Source: Oceaniovalibus guishaninsula JLT2003
GTDB lineage: Bacteria; Pseudomonadota; Alphaproteobacteria; Rhodobacterales; Rhodobacteraceae
Length of the DNA: 64,000 nt
Direction of reading: 5' to 3'
Assembly: GCF_000299575.1 (NCBI RefSeq)
Contig: NZ_AMGO01000007.1
Coordinates: forward strand, 62,001 to 126,000
Position numbers and translations under genes: made by a program. Each line of letters opens with the position of its first letter. The stretch's first letter is position 1. This document shows positions 35,608 to 37,278 of the stretch, piece after piece. The notes beneath the pieces are model-generated. The model searched no databases. It worked only from the letters and a program-made list of their open reading frames with translations, and was not told where the DNA came from.

Positions 35608-35631
35608 TTAGGGATGACCGGAAACGGAAAC

Positions 35632-35700
35632 GGCGGCGCCCGGGAGGAGGAGGACGCCGCCGCTCTGCAACGGATACCCGCAGGGAGGAGCGGGCATCCG
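35632..35700 (-). ncRNA. CcsR/cuckoo-type small RNA, unit 2 (two hairpins with anti-SD loops)
   Basis: Read on the minus strand, the first hairpin (35671-35700) has an 11-bp stem with one mismatch and loop TCCTCCCT. The second (35632-35661) has a 10-bp stem with one mismatch and loop TCCTCCTCCC. The motifs CUCCUCCC and CCUCCUCCC are therefore exposed in loops, as described for CcsR RNAs of Rhodobacter sphaeroides and the cuckoo family of alphaproteobacteria. These are stress-induced RNAs processed from a transcript that starts with a DUF1127 gene, which lies just upstream here. The last hairpin is followed by CGTTTCCGTTTCC and may also terminate the transcript. Confidence 0.75.
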
Positions 35701-35745
35701 TGTCTGGGGGAGACACGCGCAACTGCGCGGTTCCGTTGTTATTCG

Positions 35746-35812
35746 ACGGCGACCCCGGGGAGGAGGATCGGGATCGCCGTCACGGACGAAGACACTTCAG
35801 GGAGGAGAAGTG
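35746..35812 (-). ncRNA. CcsR/cuckoo-type small RNA, unit 1 (two hairpins with anti-SD loops)
   Basis: Minus strand. The first hairpin (35793-35812) is CACTTC/GAAGTG closed on loop TCCTCCCT. The second (35746-35780) has an 11-bp stem with one mismatch and a loop holding CCTCCTCCCC. The order, an 8-base-motif loop and then a 9-base-motif loop, is the same as in unit 2, so these are two tandem copies. It begins about 15 bases after the DUF1127 stop, so the RNA is probably cut from the mRNA 3' UTR. A small hairpin (35700-35716, GTGTCT/AGACAC) and a GCGC hairpin fill the spacer between the units. Confidence 0.75.
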
Positions 35813-35827
35813 CCCTCAGTCGTCCTG

Positions 35828-36043
35828 TCAGCGCGGGCCGTAGGCGGCCTCGAGCGCGATATGGCGGATTTCGGTGCGGCAAAGGCCCAGATCGGCCAGT
35901 TCGCGGTTGGAAAGATCGCTCAATTCGTTCACCGTGCGGCGGAACGTGCGACGGGCGGTCCAGCGGTCGCGGAGGGCTGCGGCGATGCCGGCGGCCCGTT
36001 CGGCGAAGCCCGCGTGATGCGGAAGGGTGGTTGTTGCGGTCAT
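35828..36043 (-). CDS. DUF1127 small protein (CcaF1-like)
   Basis: A 71-residue basic protein. The C-terminal 45 residues are the DUF1127 domain: TFRRTVNELSDLSNRELADLGLCRTEIRHIALEAAYG, with the usual LSxLSxRELxDLGLxRxxI pattern. In R. sphaeroides the DUF1127 protein encoded before the CcsR RNAs (CcaF1) is a small RNA-binding protein that affects their maturation. The same gene order here suggests an equivalent role, which is an inference. A stress-type promoter is expected; a candidate lies 49-76 bases upstream. Confidence 0.88.
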   Translation of the reverse strand: MTATTTLPHHAGFAERAAGIAAALRDRWTARRTFRRTVNELSDLSNRELADLGLCRTEIRHIALEAAYGPR

Positions 36044-36449: not shown

Positions 36450-36501
36450 CCCATGCGTTCCCACGTTTTCCCTTGCTTCCCACAAAGTCCCATGCGATCC
36501 C
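36450..36501 (-). promoter_or_regulatory. Candidate MraZ operator: six GGG boxes at about 10-bp spacing
   Basis: CCC triplets start at 36450, 36460, 36470, 36479, 36489 and 36499, so the spacing is 10, 10, 9, 10 and 10 bases. Four of the six read TGGG on the minus strand (TGGGC once, TGGGA three times). MraZ of other bacteria binds direct TGGGN repeats with five-base spacers, about one helix turn apart. E. coli has three boxes. Here there are six, in the orientation opposite to mraZ, and the array ends 273 bases before its start codon. Confidence 0.7.
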
Positions 36502-36729
36502 TTCTGGTGTCGAAAGCACGGGACGAAGCGGCAGCAAGGATCGCGATCCCGAATGATAACAGAGGTTCGCAAGGCTTCATACAGGCACACTTTTTTCGAC
36601 AATCGACAGCCCCGGCGGCAGGCGCGCGACATCCCCCAAGGCAGTGCGCGCCGCCGGGAAATTCCCCTGACGGGGCCCGGCAACGGGTAGAGGCGATCCG
36701 AACCGTGGCAGCCGTTCGGATCGCCTTTT
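36502..36729 (+). ncRNA. Candidate UpsM-like leader RNA of the dcw operon (5' end not defined)
   Basis: In R. sphaeroides the dcw cluster has an unusually long 5' leader whose early termination just before mraZ releases the abundant small RNA UpsM. Here too a long gene-free leader ends in a perfect intrinsic terminator 45 bases before mraZ. The 3' end (about 36729) is set by that terminator. The 5' end is only an estimate, taken after the MraZ boxes. A GC-rich imperfect hairpin (CCCGGCGGC near 36612-36620 with GCCGCCGGG near 36650-36658) lies within it. Confidence 0.45.
36692..36729 (+). terminator. Perfect 12-bp intrinsic terminator in the mraZ leader
   Basis: GGCGATCCGAAC (36692-36703) pairs fully with GTTCGGATCGCC (36714-36725) around a 10-base loop and is followed by TTTT. 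It lies between the MraZ boxes and the mraZ start, so transcription of the cell wall operon from upstream must read through it. This fits an attenuator or the 3' end of an UpsM-like RNA. Confidence 0.85.
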
Positions 36730-36774: not shown

Positions 36775-37278
36775 GTGTTCGGAGTGTTCATCGGCGAACA
36801 CGAGAACAAGATCGACGCCAAGGGCAGGCTGTCGATCCCGGCCGATTTCCGTCGCGAACTCGAAGACGGCGACCCGAAATGGGAGCCGGGCAAGAACGCC
36901 TCGATGCTGCTGGTTTATGGCGACCACCGGCGCAGCCATGTCGAGGTGATGAAGATCACCGACATGCGCGACGTCTACACCAAGATCACCCGGATGCCCC
37001 GCGGTTCGATCAAGCGCCGCGACATGGAGCGGCTCTATTTCCAGCAGGCGCTGACGGCCACGGTCGACGAAACGGGGCGCATCGTCCTGTCGGCGCGCGT
37101 GCGCGACAAGCTGGGGCTCGACGGCACCGCGATGGTCGTCGGCAACGGGTCCACGTTCGAAATCTGGAAGCCCGAAACCTATGCCGCCAACGATCTGTCC
37201 AATCTGCGCGACGAAGACGGATACGACCCCGACCTCGATCCGTCCGTCTATCTGCCCGGTGATGACGGGGACGTCTGA
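36775..37278 (+). CDS. mraZ: Transcriptional regulator MraZ
   Basis: A 167-residue DNA-binding protein, first gene of the dcw cluster, that in other bacteria represses its own operon through TGGGN repeats. It has two tandem MraZ/AbrB-like half-domains: [20 protein letters not shown] (about residues 6-25) and [20 protein letters not shown] (about 97-116). It is slightly longer than the E. coli protein (152 aa) because of an acidic C-terminal tail ([21 protein letters not shown]). The start is GTG, with TAGGAGG nine bases upstream. Confidence 0.96.

Follow-up and report, generated by a model that had tools for sequence, protein, structure and literature searches.

The minus strand of the DNA analysed here, a stretch of 64,000 nucleotides from Oceaniovalibus guishaninsula JLT2003 (hereafter the window), carries a row of hairpins directly behind a short DUF1127 gene. 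This arrangement raises the question of whether the hairpins are small RNAs of the CcsR/cuckoo type, how many such RNAs there are, and what they may do in the cell. As in the original prediction, we found four minus-strand hairpins with CUCCUCCC-type loops, forming two two-hairpin units in an array at 35817-35628. The array starts 10 nt past the stop codon of the DUF1127 gene. In unit 1, hairpin 1 (35817-35788, minus strand) exposes the anti-Shine-Dalgarno (aSD) loop UCCUCCCU, and hairpin 2 (35782-35744, minus strand) exposes the loop AUCCUCCUCCC, which contains CCUCCUCCC. The first hairpin of unit 2 (35701-35670, minus strand) has the loop UCCUCCCU again, and its second hairpin (35665-35628, minus strand), a probable terminator stem, has the loop UCCUCCUCCC. 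The two units had been described as identical. They do share their architecture and first loop, but their sequences differ.

The number of hairpins alone does not decide whether they differ from chance: the 64 kb contain six aSD hairpins with stems of at least 9, while 50 shuffles contained 2.1 on average and 6 at most. Four of the six, those with the longest stems (13-15 positions), lie within 190 bases on one strand and in a regular order. Folding of the region 35610-35835 yielded -121.6 kcal/mol, compared with -83.3 ± 4.6 kcal/mol in shuffled sequences (z = -8.3; none of 200 was as good). Chance hairpins are thus ruled out by clustering, stem length, folding and conservation in relatives (see below), not by number.

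A search of the whole window against Rfam at gathering scores returned nothing but a tRNA. At a relaxed threshold, 701 bases around the locus were searched, and both units matched the CcsR1 covariance model (RF02791) over model positions 1-83: unit 1 at 35824-35741 (minus strand; 40.5 bits, E = 2.1e-8) and unit 2 at 35704-35628 (minus strand; 29.9 bits, E = 2.8e-5). The check by covariance model that had been proposed for the CcsR/cuckoo assignment therefore came out in its favor, though both scores are below the gathering score of 65.3 and RF02791 membership by the Rfam cut-off was rejected. This cut-off is narrow for the family, because 121 of 149 family genomes have RF02791 matches at E 0.001 and only 8 of the 149 reach it. 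In the complete set of 68 contigs of the genome (2.90 Mb), RF02791 matched two places at E 0.001, both at this locus and none elsewhere, which bears out the predicted copy number of two. Membership in the ar14/NfeR1 family (RF02344) was rejected as well: the two units scored 37.8 and 31 bits against a cut-off of 58.8, and four hairpins stand behind a gene here, not three.

The locus has a short same-strand DUF1127 gene directly 5′ of the hairpins, tandem two-hairpin CUCCUCCC/CCUCCUCCC units and compensatory changes in the stems, as in CIN1/CcsR loci. It is of the known CcsR/CIN1 ("cuckoo") type, a two-copy member. The CcsR1-4/CcaF1 system reported from Rhodobacter (Cereibacter) sphaeroides, like CIN1/cuckoo loci, likewise begins with a 71-aa DUF1127 gene (PMC10253847, PMC8307010, PMC8625941), and its published description includes the same tandem two-hairpin aSD RNAs on the same strand, an RpoH-like promoter and a terminator at the end. 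It differs in having four units, whereas there are two here, and both first loops here carry the 8-base motif. The four CcsR RNAs that the original prediction placed behind a DUF1127 gene of R. sphaeroides agree with PMC10253847, where they are reported to be co-transcribed behind ccaF1. The ar14/NfeR1 aSD sRNAs of Rhizobiales are alike in their CCUCCUCCC hairpins, with Shine-Dalgarno (SD) pairing reported for NfeR1, and in a TGCA-N6-GCAT box described some 60-70 nt before the start. NfeR1, however, is reported to act in trans, to be driven by a sigma-70 promoter of its own and to have three hairpins, in contrast to the four hairpins behind a DUF1127 gene in our case.

The DUF1127 gene (36043-35828, minus strand) encodes a CcaF1-like protein of 71 aa with a PF06568 match (E = 5.1e-13), and it lies directly 5′ of the array on the same strand, where the prediction had placed it. 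Aligned with the DUF1127 protein of L028, which is also 71 aa long and comes from a genome (G123) with four tandem CcsR1 matches, it was identical in 33 of 75 columns. The two other DUF1127 genes of the O. guishaninsula genome (L057, G000:C21:103529-103636, and L059, G000:C46:73494-73604) had no aSD hairpin, as judged by our hairpin finder, on either strand of their 3.1-kb loci. On one side of the array, a convergent uvrD gene (UvrD-helicase, E = 1.6e-89) ends with its stop codon 14-20 nt from the array end. On the other side, mraZ (E = 4.3e-17) begins at 36775 and is transcribed away from the locus. We compared this setting with relatives obtained by a tblastn-confirmed search with the DUF1127 protein, of which the best 80 of 207, from Rhodobacteraceae, were kept. 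A convergent downstream uvrD was found at 57 of the 80 loci, a divergent upstream mraZ at 63 and both at 50, and these counts are lower bounds given contig ends and 6-kb flanks. The DUF1127-CcsR operon thus tends to sit next to the dcw cluster, a position that is not invariable as far as seen. Tandem palindromes with near-constant loops would also result if a mobile, REP-like palindromic repeat had inserted downstream of the gene. This explanation is contradicted by the genome scan, with its two RF02791 matches at this one locus, and by the conserved place, flanked by uvrD and mraZ in no fewer than 50 of the 80 relatives; together with a promoter nearly specific to the locus, these make it very improbable in our judgement.

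The leader of mraZ (window 36458-36729, plus strand) has features of its own. A TCCC-type repeat with a period of about 10 nt occupies 36458-36491 and is, we presume, MraZ-operator-like. At 36691-36729 (plus strand) a terminator-like hairpin is followed by TTTT. The leader resembles the UpsM leader reported for the dcw cluster of R. sphaeroides (PMC5089854).

Conservation of the array was followed in the same 80 relatives. The hairpin finder detected 1-11 aSD hairpins in a row within 1300 nt behind the gene in 79 of them; at the one exception (L085), the sequence behind the DUF1127 gene runs into masked N. With the same filter, aSD hairpins were found in 3 of 400 random 1300-nt stretches from the same loci. 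The four hairpins of the window are at the low end of this range, but ordinary. Among 13 genus-mates, ten have an uncut locus with 2 to 10 aSD hairpins and two are cut by a contig end, while the best DUF1127 match of another genus-mate (G002) lacks aSD hairpins. At one locus (L047, genome G020), several frames are interleaved with aSD hairpins in about 2.2 kb; they were marked as DUF1127-like by an imperfect profile, built in part from wrong-strand translations, that served to mark neighboring frames and enters none of our counts.

The original prediction had staked itself on covariation in the stems across relatives. We aligned the two units of the window and 65 distinct first units (66 were found among the 80 loci) with MAFFT. 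In this alignment, hairpin 2 has 96.7% standard pairs, with changes on both sides somewhere in all ten of its pairs, and it covaries: the covariation was 0.606, whereas shuffled versions scored 0.247 and slid ones no higher than 0.177. RNAalifold recovered hairpin 2 from the unit alignment and did not recover hairpin 1, we think since the stems of the latter are too variable for the MAFFT alignment. When hairpin 1 was aligned outward from its loop (54 distinct sequences), double changes appeared at every position, and 93% of positions paired compared with 49% (maximum 57%) when 3′ arms were exchanged, a figure that is flattering because the finder selects for pairing.

The linker between the units (35744-35700) starts with the A/U-rich single strand GAAUAACAA (35736..35744, minus strand), a candidate RNase E site. 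It continues with two motif-free spacer hairpins, CGCGCAGUUGCGCG (35729-35716, minus strand) and GUGUCUCCCCCAGACAC (35716-35700, minus strand), which the earlier listing missed while getting the four aSD hairpins right. The linker folds alone at -13.5 kcal/mol; once its neighbors are included, a different small hairpin is predicted, and the exact form is uncertain. Linkers of relatives, excluding those that contain an aSD motif, have an A/T content of 57% in the first 8 nt and 33% in the middle. They also hold a small hairpin that lacks the motif: of 84 such linkers, taken from 52 loci, 81 reach a folding energy of -4 kcal/mol or below (z averages -1.84 and is under -1 in 71 of 84). The linker of the window is built alike. 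This make-up reads as a putative cleavage site followed by a spacer. Maturation of the CcsR RNAs by RNase E has been reported (PMC8625941). At the other end of the array, among the 68 loci that have at least three hairpins, a T-run of at least 4 accompanies the last hairpin in 56, as opposed to 9 of 350 inner hairpins, and the final aSD hairpin would thus commonly double as the terminator in relatives. In the window, the last hairpin is followed by the weak U-tract GUUUCCGUUU (35622..35631, minus strand), which has runs of 3 only and lies 14 nt from the stop codon of the convergent uvrD.

It is known that strong stems block 3′ exonucleases. The hairpins might then act in cis only, as a stable 3′ untranslated region and terminator by which the DUF1127 mRNA is protected or its turnover paced, with no trans-acting RNA. 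The terminator-like last hairpin in 56 of 68 relatives and the position of all hairpins directly behind the gene are in line with such a role. However, cis protection alone leaves unexplained why the loop motif is kept in stems whose sequence changes in a compensated way. The array also varies in size from 1 to 11 hairpins, and the CcsR RNAs are reported as free RNAs (PMC8307010). We consider a purely cis role unlikely, and prefer to read the locus as a CIN1-type operon that gives rise to RNAs acting on other mRNAs.

Which mRNAs would be exposed to such RNAs is suggested by the loops, which pair best with the SD sequence GGGAGGA(G) (GGGAGGAG). GGGAGGA stands 4-10 nt before an ATG at 34 places in the genome, and 33 of these, with a frame of at least 60 aa, formed the test set (one 48-aa ORF was dropped). 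As controls, we took 41 of 46 sites with the SD AAGGAGA (five short ORFs dropped) and 25 of 40 sites with the SD AAGGAGG (30 of the 40 were read; four short ORFs and one duplicate start were dropped). By Pfam, solute-binding proteins of the families DctP, SBP_bac, Peripla_BP, NMT1 and Phosphonate-bd make up 11 of the 33 GGGAGGA genes. The corresponding numbers are 3 of 41 for AAGGAGA and 0 of 25 for AAGGAGG (Fisher's exact test: p = 0.0066 against AAGGAGA; p = 0.00025 against both controls, 11/33 versus 3/66). Uptake-transport components as a whole, a class of our own definition, account for 16 of 33, 6 of 41 and 1 of 25 genes, respectively (p = 0.0021 against AAGGAGA; p = 7e-5 against both controls). 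This class includes DUF4212 (L180) and Xan_ur_permease (L205) in the GGGAGGA set, MFS_1 (L223) and MgtE (L245) in the AAGGAGA set and TctB (L276) in the AAGGAGG set, and leaves out L181, which is ABC ATPase-like by eye. A strict class of solute-binding proteins, DctQ and binding-protein-dependent permeases gave 14 of 33 compared with 4 of 66. The trend was first noticed in eight GGGAGGAG sites that are part of the GGGAGGA set; without them, solute-binding proteins still number 9 of 25 versus 3 of 66 (p = 0.0003). The bias is a correlation in one genome, with SD sets and classes of our choosing, and it could reflect a translation habit of highly expressed transport genes and not control by sRNAs. 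For NfeR1 of Sinorhizobium meliloti, most of the predicted targets are reported to be ABC transport systems (PMC10746234).

The non-random gene function of the complementary SD sites also bears on a further explanation, in which the loops serve as a protein platform that titrates the DUF1127 protein, Hfq or ribosomal parts, acting as a sponge or in autoregulation. Many copies per transcript would suit titration, CcaF1 is reported to bind RNA and to be involved in maturing the CcsR RNAs (PMC10253847), and the CcsR RNAs are reported to interact with Hfq (PMC8307010). A platform leaves the functional bias of the SD sites unaccounted for, however, and in the S. meliloti report NfeR1 silences ntrB via its CCUCCUCCC loops while a version with changed loops loses this silencing (PMC10746234). 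We therefore give the platform little credence.

The explanation that we favor, and hold with a good deal of confidence, is a CIN1-type operon with SD-masking RNAs that would act as a brake on uptake. One stress promoter would drive a transcript comprising the mRNA of the CcaF1-like DUF1127 protein and two CcsR-type RNAs. RNase E would cut the A/U-rich linkers, the DUF1127 protein taking part. This would free two RNAs about as long as the Rfam matches (77-84 nt). Each would have two stable hairpins with CUCCUCCC or CCUCCUCCC exposed in the loop. The loops would pair with purine-rich SDs, best with GGGAGGAG, and block translation. The most exposed mRNAs would include many for periplasmic solute-binding proteins and other uptake components, and because of this the locus would probably slow solute uptake when stress sets in. 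Co-transcription, maturation by RNase E and CcaF1, and SD pairing are carried over by analogy from R. sphaeroides and S. meliloti, and we infer that the mechanism, RNA ends of this kind and the uptake brake hold in this species. In the R. sphaeroides reports, ccaF1 is co-transcribed with CcsR1-4, with RNase E processing and a terminator at the 3′ end (PMC10253847), and CcsR1-4 target the flhR mRNA (PMC8307010). The part of the DUF1127 protein may not be simply helpful, because a raised CcaF1 level reportedly interferes with the maturation of the CcsR RNAs (PMC8307010). Rfam scores well under the gathering score and first loops with the shorter motif speak against the operon explanation.

The putative stress promoter lies upstream of the DUF1127 gene and is composed of an upstream operator and a core. 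The operator TGCTTTTGCTGCATAGCAGCATTG (36156-36133, minus strand) consists of TGC-N7-GCA (36156-36144) running into GCATAGCAGCATTG (36146-36133), and it includes CTGCATAGCAG (36148-36138, minus strand), which fits the PhaR site CTGCNNNGCAG. The predicted core promoter TTGTGCACCCGCAGCAT (36119-36103, minus strand) is of the TTGTGC[AG]N3GCAG type, with a predicted RpoH-like -10 element CCTATCTT (36099-36092, minus strand). Across relatives, this control region is conserved to an unusual degree, with the pattern TGC-N7-GCAT.GC.GCATTG, TTGTGCANNNGCAG and often an RpoH-like -10. The core TTGTGC[AG]N3GCAG is present in 76 of 81 upstream regions (the 80 loci and the window), and in 72 of these 76 a GCATRGCNGCA-type box, strict or relaxed, starts 26-27 nt 5′ of TTGTGC. 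An RpoH-like -10 is found 19-21 nt from TTG in 52 of the 76, and none is found by that pattern in the other 24. This element agrees with the RpoHI/RpoHII promoter reported for ccaF1 of R. sphaeroides (PMC10253847).

Which protein might bind the operator? Judging by their sequence, the boxes resemble LysR-type (LsrB) or PhaR sites. An upstream TGC[AG]-N6-GCAT box begins 39-40 nt before the core TGCA in 72 of 76 regions. The exact form TGCA-N6-GCAT occurs in the upstream box of 52, the core box of 57 and both boxes of 38 of the 76; in the window the upper box is TGCT-N6-GCAT (one mismatch) and the core box is exact. S. meliloti LsrB is reported to bind TGCA-N6-GCAT upstream of the aSD sRNA NfeR1 (PMC10746234), and Agrobacterium VtlR to activate directly abcR1 and the small-protein gene atu1667 (PMC7486931). 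In these LsrB/VtlR circuits of Rhizobiales, as described, a single LysR regulator controls sRNAs together with a gene for a small protein, which resembles the arrangement here, as does the TGCA-N6-GCAT box at NfeR1; they differ in that the VtlR consensus is not in the promoter here. We assume, from two papers taken together, that the product of atu1667 or of its orthologues in Brucella belongs to the DUF1127 family. The VtlR consensus GCAT-N3-TG-N3-T was absent from the upstream region of the window and was found in 8 of 81 upstream regions compared with 11 of 400 controls. In the trxB locus of this genome (L175, 3.9 kb, frames of at least 90 aa, inspected by eye), one frame is Lrp-like and none is LysR-like. 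According to PMC11975290, LsrB is confined to Rhizobiales. For LsrB or VtlR as the binder, the boxes fit only in part. The PhaR site CTGCNNNGCAG (core CTGCN3GCAG) was found in 54 of 81 upstream regions compared with 12 of 400 control stretches; it is weakly specific, with five PhaR-type sites in the 64-kb window, including CTGCATAGCAG, against 2.2 expected. The site CTGCNNNGCAG is the one described for PhaR in PMC12542648, where PhaR of S. meliloti is reported to repress the small RNA MmgR, and 30% of PhaR-activated genes in TY medium to serve membrane transport. A PhaR-gated sRNA would suit these facts on MmgR and transport genes.

Taken further, the Rhodobacteraceae CcsR/CIN1 locus may be a dedicated uptake brake. 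One regulator on the twin TGC-GCA operator, either PhaR, which senses PHB, or a LysR-type protein in the role of LsrB, would act together with an RpoH-type sigma factor, and the loops would silence ABC/TRAP solute-binding-protein mRNAs with GGGAGGA(G). We offer this as a tentative proposal with the balance somewhat against it. If true, it would make the locus the Rhodobacterales counterpart of the LsrB-AbcR/NfeR1 circuits of Rhizobiales. Were PhaR the regulator, PHB stores would lift PhaR off the promoter and uptake would fall as a result. Among the paper titles and abstract openings listed, none connects CcsR with solute-binding proteins or with an operator of the LysR or PhaR type. What may be new to a specialist is the promoter and the target bias, the literature gap being weak evidence of novelty. 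If the promoter and target patterns hold, the CcsR RNAs would get a general job in Rhodobacteraceae, lowering nutrient uptake under stress. This would also link them with the Rhizobiales sRNA circuits, and the operator, some 65 bp long, could serve directly as bait for its binding protein.

The operator is nearly specific to this kind of locus. In the genome itself, the operator box has one exact copy, and allowing up to 3 mismatches adds 3 places, where the backward control yields 14. When family genomes were searched for the box with no regard to the RNA, 62 of 100 had it in exact form and none had the backward control. Of 30 box loci, two were dropped for having no readable box; among the other 28, the core is present in 22, and CTCCTCCC motifs then follow in 21 of the 22, as opposed to 1 of 6 without the core. 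At one locus (L166, genome G073), the full operator and core stand before a DUF1127-like frame, with no exact CTCCTCCC within 1.5 kb from the box. This genome has two RF02791 matches, and the RNAs may be present there with other loops.
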